Source of the DNA: Porphyromonadaceae bacterium
Lineage (GTDB): Bacteria; Bacteroidota; Bacteroidia; Bacteroidales; UBA12481
Length of the DNA stretch: 64,000 nucleotides
Direction: 5' to 3'
NCBI GenBank assembly: GCA_007280905.1
Contig: QYQM01000061.1
Location: forward strand, 62,001 to 126,000
Part shown: piece after piece, positions 31,781 through 39,095 of the stretch
Layout: every line of letters begins with the position of its first letter
Numbering within the stretch: the first letter of the stretch is position 1
The notes under the pieces: generated by a model
What the model was told of the DNA's origin: nothing
The model's database searches: none
Seen by the model: only the letters and a program-made list of their open reading frames with translations
Position numbers and translations under genes: made by a program

Positions 31781-33037
31781 TTGAATCTCGGTCTGATCAT
31801 AGAATTGATAGTCATTCTGTTGTTATTGGCAGCTTCTGCTTTGATTTCCGGGGCAGAAGTTGCCTTTTTTTCGATTGGACCCAATGAACGCAACCAGCTT
31901 AATCTGAAAACCAACAAAAAAGCCAAGAGAGTACTAACCCTCTTGGTTAAACCAGAGGATCTACTGGCTACCTTATTGGTTACTAATAATTTGGTTAACA
32001 TGGGAATTGTGATTCTTTCCACTTGGGTAACTGATTCGCTTTTAAGCTTTATGGGCTATCCTGTGTTAAAATTCATTATCCAGATTGTGCTCATCACCTT
32101 TGTGATTTTATTAATTGGAGAGGTTTTGCCGAAAATCTATGCTACACGGCATTCACTTCGGCTTGCCCAACTGATGTCAATTCCTGTATTAACCCTTGAA
32201 CGTATGCTGCGGCCGGTCAACAGGGTACTAATCGGTTCCACTTCGCTGGTCAGGAAACGACTTAAAGACCAAAGTGCTCCTTTAACCATGGATGAGCTTT
32301 CTGAGGCATTGGTACTTACAGGACAGGAACTGGTTGAAGAGGAGAAAATACTTAAAGGTATTGTAAGGTTTGGCAACATTGAGGTTGGGGAAATCATGAG
32401 ACCAAGGGTTGATATTTTTTCCCTGGACATCAGGGAACCTTTTCGTGCCGTTTTTGACCGGATGATTGAATTGGGATATTCCAGGTTTCCTGTTTATCAG
32501 AAAGACCTCGACGATATTCGGGGTATATTGTACGTAAAGGATTTATTATCCCATGTTCAGAAAACCAATTCGTTCAGATGGCAATCCTTGATCAGGCCAG
32601 CCTTTTTTGTTCCGGATAACAAACGAATCAATGATCTCCTCCAGGAATTCAGACAGAACAAAATGCATATGGCTATTGTGGTGGATGAATATGGTGGTAC
32701 CTCAGGATTGATAACTCTCGAGGATATCCTGGAGGAAATTGTTGGAGAAATCCGCGATGAATCTGATGAAGAAGATACCATGATTCAGAAAATCGGAGAG
32801 AAATCCTACTTGTGTAATGGCAAAACATCCTTACATGATTTGGTTAAGGTTCTTGAGTTGGATGAAGACTATTTTGAACAGGTAAAAGGAGGATCTGAAA
32901 CCCTGGCCGGGTTAATACTCGAACTTAAAGGAGAAATCCCTGAACCAGGTGCAAGGATTCAATTGAATTATCTTACGTTTGTGATCAAGAGTCGTGATGA
33001 TCGGAGAATCAAGGAAATAGAAATCAGAATCGCATAG
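31781..33037 (+). CDS. gldE: GldE, CNNM/CBS-domain gliding-associated membrane protein
   Basis: A 418-residue inner-membrane protein: DUF21/CNNM region with about four helices (residues 1-150, ALISGAEVAFFSIGPNERN), two CBS domains (about 200-320, including EIMRPRVDIFSLD and GLITLEDILEEIVGEI), and a CorC/HlyC domain at the end. It resembles magnesium/cobalt efflux proteins; the gldE name follows from the position directly before gldD, as in Flavobacterium. Start appears to be TTG at 31781: an in-frame stop lies just upstream and a later start would remove the first helix. Confidence 0.9.
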   Translation: MNLGLIIELIVILLLLAASALISGAEVAFFSIGPNERNQLNLKTNKKAKRVLTLLVKPEDLLATLLVTNNLVNMGIVILSTWVTDSLLSFMGYPVLKFIIQIVLITFVILLIGEVLPKIYATRHSLRLAQLMSIPVLTLERMLRPVNRVLIGSTSLVRKRLKDQSAPLTMDELSEALVLTGQELVEEEKILKGIVRFGNIEVGEIMRPRVDIFSLDIREPFRAVFDRMIELGYSRFPVYQKDLDDIRGILYVKDLLSHVQKTNSFRWQSLIRPAFFVPDNKRINDLLQEFRQNKMHMAIVVDEYGGTSGLITLEDILEEIVGEIRDESDEEDTMIQKIGEKSYLCNGKTSLHDLVKVLELDEDYFEQVKGGSETLAGLILELKGEIPEPGARIQLNYLTFVIKSRDDRRIKEIEIRIA

Positions 33038-33043
33038 GGAATT

Positions 33044-33649
33044 ATGAAGTCCAGTCCTGTTGAATATTTGATTTTGTTTGCGATGGCGCTTGTGATATTG
33101 GGATGCAGGCAGGATTATACCCCCAAACCAAGAGCCTATTATCGCATTGATCTTCCGAACAAGGAGTATCAGCTGTTATCTGGTGATTATCCGTATAGAT
33201 TCGAATATCCTTCATATGCGCGCATCCATGCTTATCAGGGAAAATGGAAAGATACCGATACAGCCGATTATTGGATCGATGTTGAATTTCCGCAATTCAA
33301 CAGCCGTGTTCATTTAACTTACAAAACGGTAAAAAACAATCTGGCAAATTTGATAGAAGATGCACATACCTATGCCTATAAGCATAGCATCAAGGCAGAT
33401 GCCATTATTCAATCAGAATATGTCGATAGCCTCACTAAAGTATATAGTGTTCTGTTTGACATAAAAGGCAATACAGCATCGTCTGTTCAGTTCTATGCGA
33501 CTGACAGTGTGCGTCATTTTCTCAGGGGCGCCCTCTATTTTGACTGTGAACCCAATAAGGATTCATTAGCTCCCGTAAGGGAATTTCTGCGCGTCGACCT
33601 TATAAAGATGATTGAATCACTTACCTGGAGAAATTTGCCCGTAAAATGA
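33044..33649 (+). CDS. gldD: GldD gliding-motility lipoprotein
   Basis: A 201-residue lipoprotein with lipobox VILGC (Cys21). Typical GldD features: PKPRAYYRIDLPNKEYQ and YPYRFEYPSYARI near the start and DSVRHFLRGALYFDCEPNKDS near the end. GldD is required for gliding and normal type IX secretion in Flavobacterium; its molecular role is unclear. The stop overlaps the next gene by 4 bases (ATGA). Confidence 0.93.
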   Translation: MKSSPVEYLILFAMALVILGCRQDYTPKPRAYYRIDLPNKEYQLLSGDYPYRFEYPSYARIHAYQGKWKDTDTADYWIDVEFPQFNSRVHLTYKTVKNNLANLIEDAHTYAYKHSIKADAIIQSEYVDSLTKVYSVLFDIKGNTASSVQFYATDSVRHFLRGALYFDCEPNKDSLAPVREFLRVDLIKMIESLTWRNLPVK

Positions 33650-34380
33650 TTCTACCCTACCTAAAAAGCCTGAAAGGCCATAAGAAAGCATTTGCCTGGC
33701 TGATTGACCCGGACAAATGCAATGATGAGCACATCAGCTCTCAACTGGCTGTTGCCAGAGATAGAGGAGTCGATTTGATTTTTGTAGGAGGAAGCCTGAT
33801 TTTTAATCATGTTGATCGGCTGATTACTAAGATAAAGTCACTGTCCCGGATACCTGTCATTCTATTTCCCGGATCACCACTTCAGCTAAGTTCGCAGGCG
33901 GATGCTGTTTTGCTGCTATCGCTGATTTCCGGGAGAAATCCTGAATATCTGATAGGAAATCATGTAGTAGCGGCTCCGTTTCTGCGGGAATCCGGATTAG
34001 AGATTATTCCAACCGGATACATGTTGATCCATGGAGGTCAGCAAACTTCAGTTTCCTATATGAGTAATACTCAGCCCATTCCGGCCGATAAGCCGGATAT
34101 TGCCCTTGCAACGGCTATGGCTGGGGAAATGCTTGGACTAAAAGTCATTTATCTTGATGCCGGGAGTGGCGCACTTAATCCTGTGCCATTGAACATGATT
34201 GCTTCGGTTGCTTCAGAGATCGATCTGCCGCTTATGATAGGAGGTGGAATCCGGACTCCGGCTGATGTTAGGATTGCTTATGAATCCGGAGCCGATGTAG
34301 TGATAGTGGGAAATGCCATTGAGAATAGCCGGAATCGTCTGGGCGAACTGATTATCGAACGCGATCGGTTCAATATCTGA
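33646..34380 (+). CDS. Geranylgeranylglyceryl / heptaprenylglyceryl phosphate synthase family protein
   Basis: A 244-residue TIM-barrel prenyltransferase that joins sn-glycerol-1-phosphate to a polyprenyl diphosphate by an ether bond. Recognised by FAWLIDPDK at the start, VGGSLI, VILFPGSPLQLS, YLDAGSGA, GGGIRTPADV and VVIVGNAIE. It belongs to the group found in archaea and also in Bacteroidota, where it is not thought to make bulk membrane lipids. Translationally coupled to gldD by a 4-base overlap; its 3' end overlaps the minus-strand gene by 11 bases. Confidence 0.92.
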   Translation: MILPYLKSLKGHKKAFAWLIDPDKCNDEHISSQLAVARDRGVDLIFVGGSLIFNHVDRLITKIKSLSRIPVILFPGSPLQLSSQADAVLLLSLISGRNPEYLIGNHVVAAPFLRESGLEIIPTGYMLIHGGQQTSVSYMSNTQPIPADKPDIALATAMAGEMLGLKVIYLDAGSGALNPVPLNMIASVASEIDLPLMIGGGIRTPADVRIAYESGADVVIVGNAIENSRNRLGELIIERDRFNI

Positions 34381-35104
34381 CAGGCGAAATCTCAAAACCG
34401 ATTTCCAAATCCGGTAAGTCTTTCAAAGATGATGTATTTACCAACCGGGATAAGCGGTAAGATGCGATAAGACTGAACCTGTCGAAGCCAAACCGCACGT
34501 ATGCCTTATAGGTAAGAGTGTTAATATTTTTCAAACCGGATACAGTGGTTTTTTCAATCAGATAGGGTTTCGGACCAGCTGAATTAAACACATCTTTTGT
34601 CACCAGGTGATTGATAATGGAAGCCTGGGCCGTTATTCCAAGATCAATATATTTACTAAGGTAATCTCCCCGCTGCCCCAGCCTGACCCTCAGGAATATC
34701 CCGCTAAACAGACCGGATGTAATTATTGATTGAGATTGATGTATTAATGTATCAGGAAAGTTTCTTCCGGGAGACTGGTTAATTCTAAAAAAATTGCGAT
34801 TGATGCCACATTCGGAAACTATCGCAAAAGGCTTTGTCACTTTAAGTTTATAACGGAACCCCACGGTGATCTGACCTGTAAATGGTTGATCTGTATTGAT
34901 TGTTAATGTACCAGAAGTTGGAATGGTTAAGGATGTTGAGAGAAAGGCATGATAGAAATGCCTGCGGTTAGGGCCGAAATTCGGATGATCCGGCGAATGA
35001 TCGAGCCACTTTTCAAAAATCAGATCCTGGGCTTTGACGTTTGCCTGGACTATGCTCAGCAAGAAAAGTAAAATGATCCCTGCTGCTATCTTTTTTCTTT
35101 CCAT
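34370..35104 (-). CDS. Secreted, probable outer-membrane beta-barrel protein
   Basis: 244 residues with a signal peptide (MERKKIAAGIILLF to VKAQ). The mature part has many alternating beta-strand-like segments (GQITVGFRYKLKV, KAYVRFGFDRFSLIASYRLS) and ends in a strand closing with a Tyr, in keeping with an outer-membrane barrel. I do not recognise the family. Its start lies inside the end of the subtilisin-like gene (19-base overlap), so it is the last gene of a coupled minus-strand operon. Confidence 0.7.
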   Translation of the reverse strand: MERKKIAAGIILLFLLSIVQANVKAQDLIFEKWLDHSPDHPNFGPNRRHFYHAFLSTSLTIPTSGTLTINTDQPFTGQITVGFRYKLKVTKPFAIVSECGINRNFFRINQSPGRNFPDTLIHQSQSIITSGLFSGIFLRVRLGQRGDYLSKYIDLGITAQASIINHLVTKDVFNSAGPKPYLIEKTTVSGLKNINTLTYKAYVRFGFDRFSLIASYRLSRLVNTSSLKDLPDLEIGFEISPVRY

Positions 35105-36336
35105 ACAGTGGTTGCTCCATTAAAACTGCAACGAAATACGTCTCCTGGTCCAAATCCCGATTTGCTGATCACAACAGGTTTGTCGCCATTGACCCGGTAA
35201 ACTCCATATCTTATAAGGTATCCGGAGGTATTGCTGATATGATAATAGAGGTATCTTCCGGGTATTATCGATGTGGTGATCAGGCTAGTTTCCGGAATGC
35301 TTACACTAAAACTCTCATTGTCGACAGATAGGCTAATCGCTTCAGAATCCTTTTTTTGGTTTGGGTTTATAATCCGGGAAGCCTGAGGGATGCCATATCC
35401 GTGGGAGTAATCGTAATAGGGGAACAAATGTCCCGACTGTTCAATCAAAGAAATAATTTCCTGTGCTGAGAGTGAACGGTTCATTTGCCAGGTGCACGCT
35501 GCGAAGCCCGTTATCAAGGGTGCTGAAAAAGAGGTTCCCTCCATGATGCGTGTGCCGCCTGTCGGGTTGAGAGTAACCACTTTGCCAGGGGCGCAAACAT
35601 TGGGTTTCAATCGTTTGTCGGCTGTGGGGCCAATGGAGCTGTAACCGGCGACCAATCCCGTCACGGGATCGATGGCGCCCACACTGAGTATCGAATCAGC
35701 ATCGGCAGGTGTTCCCATTGTTTGCCACCTGGTCTGTCCTTCGTTGCCGTTGGAAGTAATGATCAGAATTCCCTTACGGGCAGCCCTGGCGGCGGCTTTG
35801 GCAGAGATGCTGTGACGACCATCCATTTCGGAGGTAAAATATCGTTGATAAGTATAACCCAATGAAGATTGTATGATGTCTGCTCCATGATCTATTGCCC
35901 AATCAACAGCTGAAGCCCAATTCAATTCCTCCTGACGGGGTTCTCCGCTTTTTTCAGTCAGGGCCAGGAGAAACTCGGCATCCGGGGCAAGGCCAAGTGG
36001 CCGGCCGTCGCTAATACCGGCTATGCAGGAAAGAACCTCTGTTCCATGAGGGACACCTCTATAAACATTTTCGCGGTTTTTTACAAAATCCCAGGTGGCA
36101 ACAATCTGTTTTCCGTCTATCAAATGTTTCAAGGCAGGATGGGTATTGGTACCGGGGAATCCACCATCCAGAATGGCTATGCGAATCCCCCGACCCGTGA
36201 TCCCTTTTTGTATGAATTCTTCTCCCTGAAGATATTTGATTTGCGCAGTCCATATTTTATTGACTTCATTGTCGCGCCCATCCTGAAAGGAGAATGCAAA
36301 TAAAATACAGGGAATCAGGAACAGAAATTTTCTCAT
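35086..36336 (-). CDS. Subtilisin-like serine peptidase (S8 family), secreted
   Basis: 416 residues with a short signal peptide. The catalytic triad is intact: Asp57 (AILDGG), His97 (PHGTEV) and Ser269 (EGTSFSAPLI), with the oxyanion Asn in SNGNEG near 198. There is little propeptide between signal and catalytic domain. About 100 residues after the catalytic domain form a beta-rich extension with no type IX sorting motif. The gene overlaps its upstream neighbour by 4 bases and its downstream one by 19, so three exported proteins (phosphatase-like, protease, barrel) are made together. Confidence 0.92.
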   Translation of the reverse strand: MRKFLFLIPCILFAFSFQDGRDNEVNKIWTAQIKYLQGEEFIQKGITGRGIRIAILDGGFPGTNTHPALKHLIDGKQIVATWDFVKNRENVYRGVPHGTEVLSCIAGISDGRPLGLAPDAEFLLALTEKSGEPRQEELNWASAVDWAIDHGADIIQSSLGYTYQRYFTSEMDGRHSISAKAAARAARKGILIITSNGNEGQTRWQTMGTPADADSILSVGAIDPVTGLVAGYSSIGPTADKRLKPNVCAPGKVVTLNPTGGTRIMEGTSFSAPLITGFAACTWQMNRSLSAQEIISLIEQSGHLFPYYDYSHGYGIPQASRIINPNQKKDSEAISLSVDNESFSVSIPETSLITTSIIPGRYLYYHISNTSGYLIRYGVYRVNGDKPVVISKSGFGPGDVFRCSFNGATTVWKEKR

Positions 36337-37982
36337 TTAACCAAATCATAAAGGATTTTGCCAGTTGCGCCGGCCGGAGAAGAAATATTGAGCACATGGG
36401 ATAGGGTTGGGGCAATGTCGAGCAGGGTAACCGGACGGTTGATCGTTTGTTTTGATACTTTCCAACCATACCAGGTTAGAGGAACATGAGTATCATAGGA
36501 GTAAGGGGAGCGGGAATCGCTATCTGTGTTTTCTTCTTCAATCCAACCAGGCTGCAAAATCAGGAAAATATCGCCGGTACGATCGGGGCTGTATGAGTTC
36601 TGTACCAAATCTCCCCATGGACTAGTCACTTCGCCTGTAAGGAGCCGATCTGCGGGAATGGCTCTTGCCACACCATCGAAATGGGTCAGGAATCTGGAAG
36701 CCTGATCCTGAATAATAGTGAAAGAGAGGTTTTTCTGATCTATAAGGGTTTCATTCAGGTATATCTGGTGATTGACATAATATTCTATCCAGTTACCTTC
36801 TCCATATATTACGCTCAGGTATGAGTTCAGCAAAGCGACTGCATTACGGTACCGGAAGAATCTTCCAGGGAGGTTCAATGCACGGCTATAATCAGGATCC
36901 ATGGAGGAGCCATGGGTTGATGTGAGAAATATCAGAGTTTTGTCTTTCCCAATCGTCTCCTCTATCTGATAAAGGAGCCGTTGTATATCCATGTCAAGCC
37001 GCAGAAGAGCATCCGCAACTTCTCTTGAATCCGGGCCGAACAATTTGGTTATCTGGTTAATTGCAGTATAACTGACCCAAAGAAGGTCAGTTGTCTGGTC
37101 TTTCCCGAGTCCCTCTTCCAGAAGAGCTGTAATGGCAAAGTCGGTAGTTAGAGTGTTCCCGAACGGCATCATTCCAAGGATTTCGTTATCCTGGCCGAGG
37201 CTTTCACGGCGTATGCGGCTCAATTTGTAAGGGAAAGTTTTGAATTGGTTATAGTAGCCGGTTTCAAGGTCGTTATCATCGGGCGGACAGCCTGAGTATA
37301 AATTATCAGCCAATAGAAGGTCCCAGTCCCTGGTCATATAGTGGGCGGCCGAATTGCGGGCATTGAAGTTGTTTACCCACTCGGGGAGCGTGTTAGCGTA
37401 TTGTGAACTGGTAATCCAATTACCTGATGGCGTATCGAACCAATAAGCAGAGCCCGGAATGTGACCCTCTAAAAGAATTGCAGGTTCCGCTCTGAAAGAA
37501 ACTGAAACTACTTTCCCCTTGTAGTCCGACGACAGGATGATCTGGTCACCTATCGTATTGGCCAAAAGCTGATTGGCTGAATGTTTGCCATTAATGCTAT
37601 TACCGCCGATAGATCTGGCCAAATAATCATTTGTGCAATTCTCCTGCTCGCGGCGGAGCCGGTTATACCAATTTTCGGACACAATTCCATGAATGGCCGG
37701 AGGGGCACCGGTGGAGATCGAAGCGCTTGAGGATCCAGCATCAGCTAATAAGAACGGAACCGAAGTATCTGTATAATTGGTGCCTTGTTTAATCAATTTT
37801 TTGATTCCTCCTTCACCGAAAAGATTCCAGTAGCGTTCAATCCAATCGTACTTCATGCCATCCACCACAATGCCAACAATGAAAGCAGGCCTGTCAGCAG
37901 GTATCTGGGCATAAGAGTTATAACAAGCCAAGGATCCGGAAAGGACCATAAGAGCAAGCAAGAATCTGAGTTTTATGTGCAT
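36333..37982 (-). CDS. Alkaline-phosphatase-superfamily protein with degenerate active site
   Basis: 549 residues with a signal peptide. The overall family is clear: VGIVVDGMKYDW, PPAIHGIVSENWYNR, KVVSVSFRAEPAILLEGH, FGPDSREVADALLRLD and YDTHVPLTWYG match PafA-type phosphatases. Several catalytic positions are changed. The nucleophile region (normally T-x-x-G-H-A) reads ADAGSSSA (80-87), so Thr becomes Ala82 and His becomes Ser86. The DYxGH motif reads NQITK (309-313), replacing the metal Asp and His. The ADHG motif reads STHG (355-358), replacing the Asp. Asp41 and His499 remain. Metal-dependent phosphatase activity is therefore unlikely; a binding or chaperone role is inferred. Lies 15 bases after ychF. 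Confidence 0.85.
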   Translation of the reverse strand: MHIKLRFLLALMVLSGSLACYNSYAQIPADRPAFIVGIVVDGMKYDWIERYWNLFGEGGIKKLIKQGTNYTDTSVPFLLADAGSSSASISTGAPPAIHGIVSENWYNRLRREQENCTNDYLARSIGGNSINGKHSANQLLANTIGDQIILSSDYKGKVVSVSFRAEPAILLEGHIPGSAYWFDTPSGNWITSSQYANTLPEWVNNFNARNSAAHYMTRDWDLLLADNLYSGCPPDDNDLETGYYNQFKTFPYKLSRIRRESLGQDNEILGMMPFGNTLTTDFAITALLEEGLGKDQTTDLLWVSYTAINQITKLFGPDSREVADALLRLDMDIQRLLYQIEETIGKDKTLIFLTSTHGSSMDPDYSRALNLPGRFFRYRNAVALLNSYLSVIYGEGNWIEYYVNHQIYLNETLIDQKNLSFTIIQDQASRFLTHFDGVARAIPADRLLTGEVTSPWGDLVQNSYSPDRTGDIFLILQPGWIEEENTDSDSRSPYSYDTHVPLTWYGWKVSKQTINRPVTLLDIAPTLSHVLNISSPAGATGKILYDLVK

Positions 37983-37997
37983 TTGGTATACGTTTTA

Positions 37998-39095
37998 TCA
38001 GACATTAAAACGTATGTGCAGGATATCTCCGTCTTCGACAATGTAATTTTTCCCTTCAATAAGTAGTTTTCCTGCTTCCCGGCATGCAGCCTCAGTTTTA
38101 CATATTATATAATCTTTGTATTTAATTACCTCTGCTCTGATAAAGCCTCTCTGGAGATCAGAGTGGATAACTCCGGCAGCTTCGGGGGCTGTTGCTCCCT
38201 TCCGGATGGTCCAGGCCCTCACTTCCTTAGGCCCGGCGGTGAAAAAAACCTCAAGATTCAGGATGGAGAAAGCCGATCGGATCAATTTATTAACGCCGGG
38301 TTCATCAAGTTTTAATTCTGACAGAAAGGCCAGCCGGTCTTCCGGGTCTTCCAGTTCAGCGATTTCGGACTCTGCTTTTGCAGCAATGATCAGTGTTTCG
38401 GTTTTCTCACCCCGGATAGATTCAATGAACCGGTTTGAGTACATATTCCCGGTAACAGCCGATTTCTCATCAACATTACAAACGTAAATGACTGGTTTTG
38501 CGGTCAGCAGGCACAGTTCTGCAATATGTTCCTCATCCTCGCGCGAAAGATGCAGTGTCCGGACATTTTTGAAATCCTCAAGATGTGCCTTAATACGGTT
38601 TACAACCTCCAATCCATGCTTTGATGTCTTGTCACCTGCTTTTACACTTCTTTCGAGTTTGAGAATTCTTTTATCTATTGCATCCAGATCCTTCATCTGC
38701 AACTCCAGGTCGATTATTTCACGATCCCGTACCGGGTCGATCGTAGTATCGATATGAACAAGATTCGGGTCATCAAAGCAACGCACCACATGTACGAGTG
38801 CATCACAGTTCCGGATATCAGCAAGGAAGCTGTTTCCAACACCTTCACCTTTTGAAGAACCTTTGGTTAAACCCGGGATGTCCACTACATCCACCGTAGT
38901 AGGCATTACCCGTGCGGAATGGATCAGGGAGTCAAGTTTCAGGAGTCTTTCGTCAGGTACTTTTACCTGGCCCAGATTCGATTTGTTGGTGCTAAAAGCG
39001 AAATTGCTGGTAGCTACTTTAGTTTCTGAGATACAGTTAAACAGGGTGGTTTTCCCGGTATTTGTAATCCCGATAATGCCGCATTTTAGTCCCAT
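37998..39095 (-). CDS. ychF: Redox-regulated ATPase YchF (Obg-family)
   Basis: A 365-residue OLA1/YchF protein. The P-loop is GITNTGKTT (9-17), a variant of the usual GLPNVGKST; the remaining motifs DIPGLTKGSSKGEGVGN and NVDE (G4, Glu in place of Asp, which favours ATP) are present. The C-terminal TGS-like domain ends YIVEDGDILHIRFNV. Universally conserved, ribosome-associated and linked to stress response. First gene of the minus-strand run to 34370. Confidence 0.96.
   Translation of the reverse strand: MGLKCGIIGITNTGKTTLFNCISETKVATSNFAFSTNKSNLGQVKVPDERLLKLDSLIHSARVMPTTVDVVDIPGLTKGSSKGEGVGNSFLADIRNCDALVHVVRCFDDPNLVHIDTTIDPVRDREIIDLELQMKDLDAIDKRILKLERSVKAGDKTSKHGLEVVNRIKAHLEDFKNVRTLHLSREDEEHIAELCLLTAKPVIYVCNVDEKSAVTGNMYSNRFIESIRGEKTETLIIAAKAESEIAELEDPEDRLAFLSELKLDEPGVNKLIRSAFSILNLEVFFTAGPKEVRAWTIRKGATAPEAAGVIHSDLQRGFIRAEVIKYKDYIICKTEAACREAGKLLIEGKNYIVEDGDILHIRFNV

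Follow-up and report, generated by a model that had tools for sequence, protein, structure and literature searches.

What does a PafA-type phosphatase homologue do once its catalytic residues are gone, and is it the partner of the protease encoded next to it? PafA is a reference enzyme for how residues outside the active site shape catalysis. The question is raised by a locus in the window (the whole stretch of 64,000 nucleotides that was analysed), in which three open reading frames on the minus strand encode a PafA-like protein of 549 amino acids with an N-terminal signal sequence (36333..37982), an S8 subtilase (35086..36336) and a small predicted outer-membrane β-barrel (34370..35104). Adjacent genes share 4 and 19 bases at their ends, and 15 bases separate the PafA-like gene from the end of the upstream ychF gene, a conserved neighbour encoding a GTPase (37998..39095, minus strand; PF06071, E=1.6e-38); the first-pass annotation of this DNA had given the same distances, and they agree with the coordinates of the open reading frames. 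On the opposite strand lie the genes for SSB, a GldE-like CNNM/CorC protein (31781..33037; PF01595, PF00571, PF03471) and the lipoprotein GldD (33044..33649; PF25593, E=6.2e-65), the last two forming a conserved flank, and that for a convergent PcrB-family protein (33646..34380; PF01884, E=7.9e-39). The 3′ ends of the barrel and PcrB genes share 11 bases (34370-34380), and a comparable short convergent overlap occurs in most loci of the same family.

The order ychF-PafA-S8-barrel-PcrB-GldD-GldE is present in those genomes of the same family that have complete contigs, which indicates that the arrangement is not due to chance. The three-gene order, which the annotation had proposed to look for in relatives, held in these genomes but is split in four congeners, where a gene for about 680 amino acids (DUF4114/DUF4842) is inserted on the opposite strand between PafA and S8. 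This gene, absent from the window, encodes 676-688 amino acids (L034 9876-11906, L035 211-2244, L036 6151-8184, L041 1827-3893); the DUF4114/DUF4842 match was seen in L034.

The PafA-like protein matches Pfam Phosphodiest (3.8e-28) and, with 492.6 bits, NCBIfam alk_phos_PafA (NF042991), below the equivalog cut-off of 650. Its best solved relative is PafA from Elizabethkingia (PDB 5tj3; phmmer E=2.7e-89, residues 30-547), to which it is homologous over the full length at about 31% identity. An AF2 model calculated from the window sequence and those of relatives (pLDDT 89.2, pTM 0.88) superposed on 5tj3 with TM 0.89/0.94 and an rmsd of 2.2 over 527 columns, which indicates that the PafA fold is kept. 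The two proteins differ in the metal site. In the alignment to 5tj3 the nucleophile T79 is replaced by A82, H83 by S86, and the zinc ligands D305, H309, D352 and H486 by N309, K313, T356 and S490, respectively; of the nucleophile and the six zinc ligands (D38, D305, H309, D352, H353, H486) only D41 and H357 remain, five of the seven positions being changed. In addition, N100 is replaced by E103, K162 by R164 and R164 by E166. A fold kept without its chemistry was what the annotation had claimed, and this view is borne out: Ala82, Ser86, Asn309/Lys313 and Thr356 had all been named correctly, whereas the change to S490 had been missed. Alignment and predicted model together show a protein in which metal site, nucleophile and phosphate-binding residues are missing, a loss of chemistry demonstrated as well as sequence can demonstrate it; phosphatase activity would be absent. 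Read from its N-terminal sequence alone, the protein is exported. The window genome (G000) yielded no second strong match to the PafA family and therefore seems to be without an intact PafA.

Among 198 genomes of the order, each at least 90% complete, 139 had profile matches, 120 reaching 250 bits in the count of matches listed; the matching genomes were mostly single-copy, and a few of the 250-bit matches are classic intact PafAs. Classified by the seven catalytic positions, 191 homologues together with the window protein and the PafA reference fall into 63 intact, one truncated and 129 dead sequences, the last having kept five or fewer of the seven. The dead set nevertheless keeps at more than 85% half of the columns that are near-invariant in the intact enzymes (30 of 61). 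Named genomes with dead copies belong to the Bacteroidales or Marinilabiliales wherever an order was assigned, and in named genomes with an assigned order outside these two all copies are intact. Across the order, dead members of the PafA family are common, mostly single-copy and, as described below, slowly evolving.

The enzyme might still be active with an altered chemistry, by way of another metal arrangement or nucleophile. D41 and H357 are kept, some dead relatives retain five of the seven ligands, and there is the precedent of YejM from E. coli, which was initially regarded as inactive but has since been reported to be a Mg-dependent phosphatase (PMC7576196). YejM, however, retained its nucleophile and the window protein did not, and the 129 dead sequences carry 117 distinct seven-letter ligand strings, so that no common alternative site is left. 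We consider an altered chemistry very unlikely. A rebuilt metal site was ruled out, since the dead set shows no His, Asp, Glu or Cys that has become conserved and could form one. YejM (PbgA, LapC), a regulator of LPS synthesis from the same superfamily with an envelope role beyond plain phosphate scavenging, is comparable to the window protein only by a works-like analogy: it has an anchor of five transmembrane segments and a metal-bound site whose nucleophilic Thr is conserved (PMC7576196), whereas the window protein has neither, being predicted to be soluble, with a signal sequence and one N-terminal hydrophobic segment and without the transmembrane bundle. Against the YejM/PbgA family NF038282 it scores 13.9 bits at a cut-off of 825.

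That the catalytic residues drift freely could also mean that the gene is simply decaying. The open reading frames, however, are full-length, and when the window is compared with the congener closest to it, the dN of the dead PafA (0.117) is at the level of transketolase (0.114), whereas the S8 subtilase has roughly twice this value (0.216) and the barrel 0.39; synonymous sites were saturated or nearly so in this comparison and therefore dN alone was compared, and no dN/dS was formed. These constraint data contradict decay, which we regard as hardly credible.

When the dead and intact sets, each thinned to below 60% identity, were compared by column entropy, the catalytic segments proved more variable in the dead than in the intact proteins. 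Residues 376-440 (codons 36663..36857, minus strand) follow the reverse pattern: the segment, which is the most variable region of the classic PafAs, is more conserved in the dead set. Among all 459 windows of 62 residues, 376-437 has the lowest dead-minus-intact entropy, and it keeps this position after the divergence of the two sets has been made more alike. The signature of the segment is LL.SYL.A.YG.G.W...Y...QIYLN..LIE. A consensus of 28 positions, built from dead sequences with the Lnb/SecA clade (see below) held out, was matched to 0.83 by the sequences used in building it, to 0.77 by the held-out clade and to 0.96 by five intact sequences that lie inside the dead clade, as compared to 0.43 for the 58 classic intact PafAs; outside 376-440 the match was 0.80 for the dead, 0.78 for the classic intact and 0.52 for the Lnb/SecA sequences. 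Constraint may thus have moved to 376-440, in a comparison that is unpolarised, so that it may instead be the classic PafAs in which constraint was relaxed. The low dN and the moved constraint together point to a binding function that has been kept.

In a tree calculated with IQ-TREE after removal of the catalytic columns, the five intact sequences (L155, L156, L159, L161, L165) are nested among dead ones with support of 99/92. A Dollo count, which allows no regain, gave seven losses of catalysis (6-8 over 1000 bootstrap trees), and forcing the intact sequences together cost 58 log-likelihood units. A single loss is rejected at a p-AU of 0.039, just below 0.05, in a tree in which some branches are long. 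The catalytic centre was lost about seven separate times. At least two of the intact genes lie in a neighbourhood typical of dead ones, that of L155 downstream of ychF and an M14 carboxypeptidase gene and that of L159 before S8-barrel-PcrB. Because the five intact relatives bear the 376-440 signature, the non-catalytic role probably came first and predates the loss of catalysis, a polarity assigned without an outgroup root.

In relatives the PafA gene recurs in different company. The order Lnb-PafA-SecA, all on the same strand, is found in about 20 genomes (L066, L069-L071, L199, L200, L203, L204, L206-L208, L213 and others). In another recurrent arrangement ychF, the gene of an M14 carboxypeptidase with Por tail and PafA stand against PcrB-PPT-GldD-GldE-SSB. 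The order PafA-S8-barrel recurs in at least five lineages; besides the window family, L046, L083, L159, L182, L196 and L273 have it. In L182 ychF, M14, PafA, S8 and barrel genes are all together, which suggests that a single ancestral cluster existed and was split up later. No partner is constant, Lnb/SecA, M14 and S8 each accompanying only part of the family, and the dead PafA mostly lies elsewhere than S8, namely with Lnb and SecA or with the M14 carboxypeptidase.

The gene of the M14 zinc carboxypeptidase, a cargo of type IX secretion with the corresponding tail, often lies upstream of PafA, for example in L182 (5412-7400) and comparable loci. The window locus lacks this gene, and its PafA-like protein, subtilase and barrel had no match to Por_Secre_tail. 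SprA is present in 188 of the 198 genomes, and 7 of the 10 genomes without SprA keep a strong PafA-family match, which makes a link to the type IX system uninformative to negative; this system was therefore rejected as the partner. In L054 the dead PafA gene lies two genes away from an open reading frame for 2506 amino acids, on a contig that also carries SprA.

Could the dead PafA be a dedicated partner of the adjacent S8 subtilase, an inhibitor, chaperone or presenter that takes over the function of a prodomain in trans? The overlapping or close ends of the genes in the PafA-S8-barrel loci listed above are in agreement with this, as is the S8 protein itself: its orthologues mostly have an N-terminal extension of about 100-130 residues, presumably a prodomain, which is missing in the window genus and in L039, where S8 starts near the catalytic domain. 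In L042-L044 of the same family, however, S8 retains the extension and a dead PafA is present all the same, and in the four congeners PafA and S8 are separated by the inserted gene. L159 has the same order with a fully intact PafA, which indicates that the link to S8 is independent of the lost chemistry. S8-barrel mostly occurs with no PafA nearby. In 15 further loci with a non-fused barrel, S8 is directly upstream in 13 and PafA is adjacent in one (of the remaining two, one runs into the contig end and one has no S8). The tie to a protease asserted in the first-pass annotation therefore exists locally and is not general. Since S8-barrel and PafA travel separately, a protease-specific role is a minority view, and the inhibitor or maturation role that the annotation had suggested for PafA is not favoured; we think a dedicated partnership of PafA with S8 unlikely. 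A general binding role in the envelope (binding had been suggested alongside) is favoured, given the contexts with Lnb and SecA or the M14 carboxypeptidase.

The same contexts raise the question whether the dead PafA works with lipoprotein maturation. Lnb, a lipoprotein N-acyltransferase, adjoins PafA in the large clade with SecA, and in the other clade PcrB is its convergently encoded neighbour. In Bacillus the PcrB product feeds lipoprotein N-acetylation, a phosphatase step having been supplied in vitro (PMC12345273). PcrB is encoded on the opposite strand, however, and the window genome carries Lnb and SecA on contigs other than that of PafA, so that this specific assignment is doubtful.

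In our best reading the protein binds or acts as a scaffold in the periplasm and serves envelope protein biogenesis, a role that we infer because nothing else is shared by all the contexts. The family would have a non-hydrolytic function, for which the subdomain 376-440 is at least partly responsible; this function would have been present while the enzyme was still active, the catalytic centre being lost afterwards. The dead PafA would act by binding, either within the periplasm or on the outer membrane, and the 376-440 region would be the site at which a partner in envelope protein biogenesis, a protein or a lipid, docks. To judge from its neighbourhood in the window, it may also present or shield clients for S8. 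We consider it rather probable that the protein is an exported pseudo-phosphatase with a binding role in the envelope and a Bacteroidales-wide, non-hydrolytic function exerted in part via 376-440, catalysis having been lost about seven times. With over 100 dead relatives, nested intact ones and a measured shift of constraint, the transition from an enzyme to a binding protein becomes testable, and attention is drawn to an unstudied, widely kept envelope protein encoded beside lipoprotein maturation and Sec genes in Bacteroidales. We found no papers on dead PafA relatives, on Lnb neighbours, on subtilase-barrel pairs or on the function of the barrel in the open literature, most subscription journals lying outside the search.

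The S8 subtilase shares fold and triad with subtilisin and its relatives (PF00082, E=3.3e-39). The triad, D57/H97/S269 by alignment, is intact as annotated. The window protein differs from the subtilisin type in a C-terminal extension of about 90 residues, in lacking an N-terminal extension and in being paired with an outer-membrane barrel. The barrel assignment of the annotation is supported by an AF2 model with nine strands (pLDDT 77), whose best Foldseek matches are OmpA (E=1.4e-4), Ail and OmpX at a modest TM of 0.3-0.5, which would make the third protein a small OmpA/OmpX-like outer-membrane barrel. S8-barrel forms an independent unit, mostly found at a distance from PafA, and would act as a module of its own, probably an outer-membrane-tethered protease for processing or quality control. 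In five genomes (G089, G124, G012, G014, G010) subtilase and barrel are one open reading frame of 772, 784, 780, 743 and 504 amino acids (L267-L270 and L039, respectively). These fusions look like an unrecognised class of outer-membrane-tethered subtilases. Whether such a distinct class, paired or fused, exists together with a second function that arose in the active PafA, with 376-440 as its working surface and catalysis dispensable about seven times, we regard as evenly balanced.

The fused proteins resemble the subtilase autotransporters of type V secretion in that the passenger comes first and the barrel last, and translocation of the passenger is a candidate function. Unlike in type V autotransporters, the barrel is small and OmpA/OmpX-like and is normally encoded by a separate gene; this is also the case in the window, where subtilase and barrel do not form the single polypeptide of an autotransporter. 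The barrel orthologue of L159 has a weak match to PF13568.
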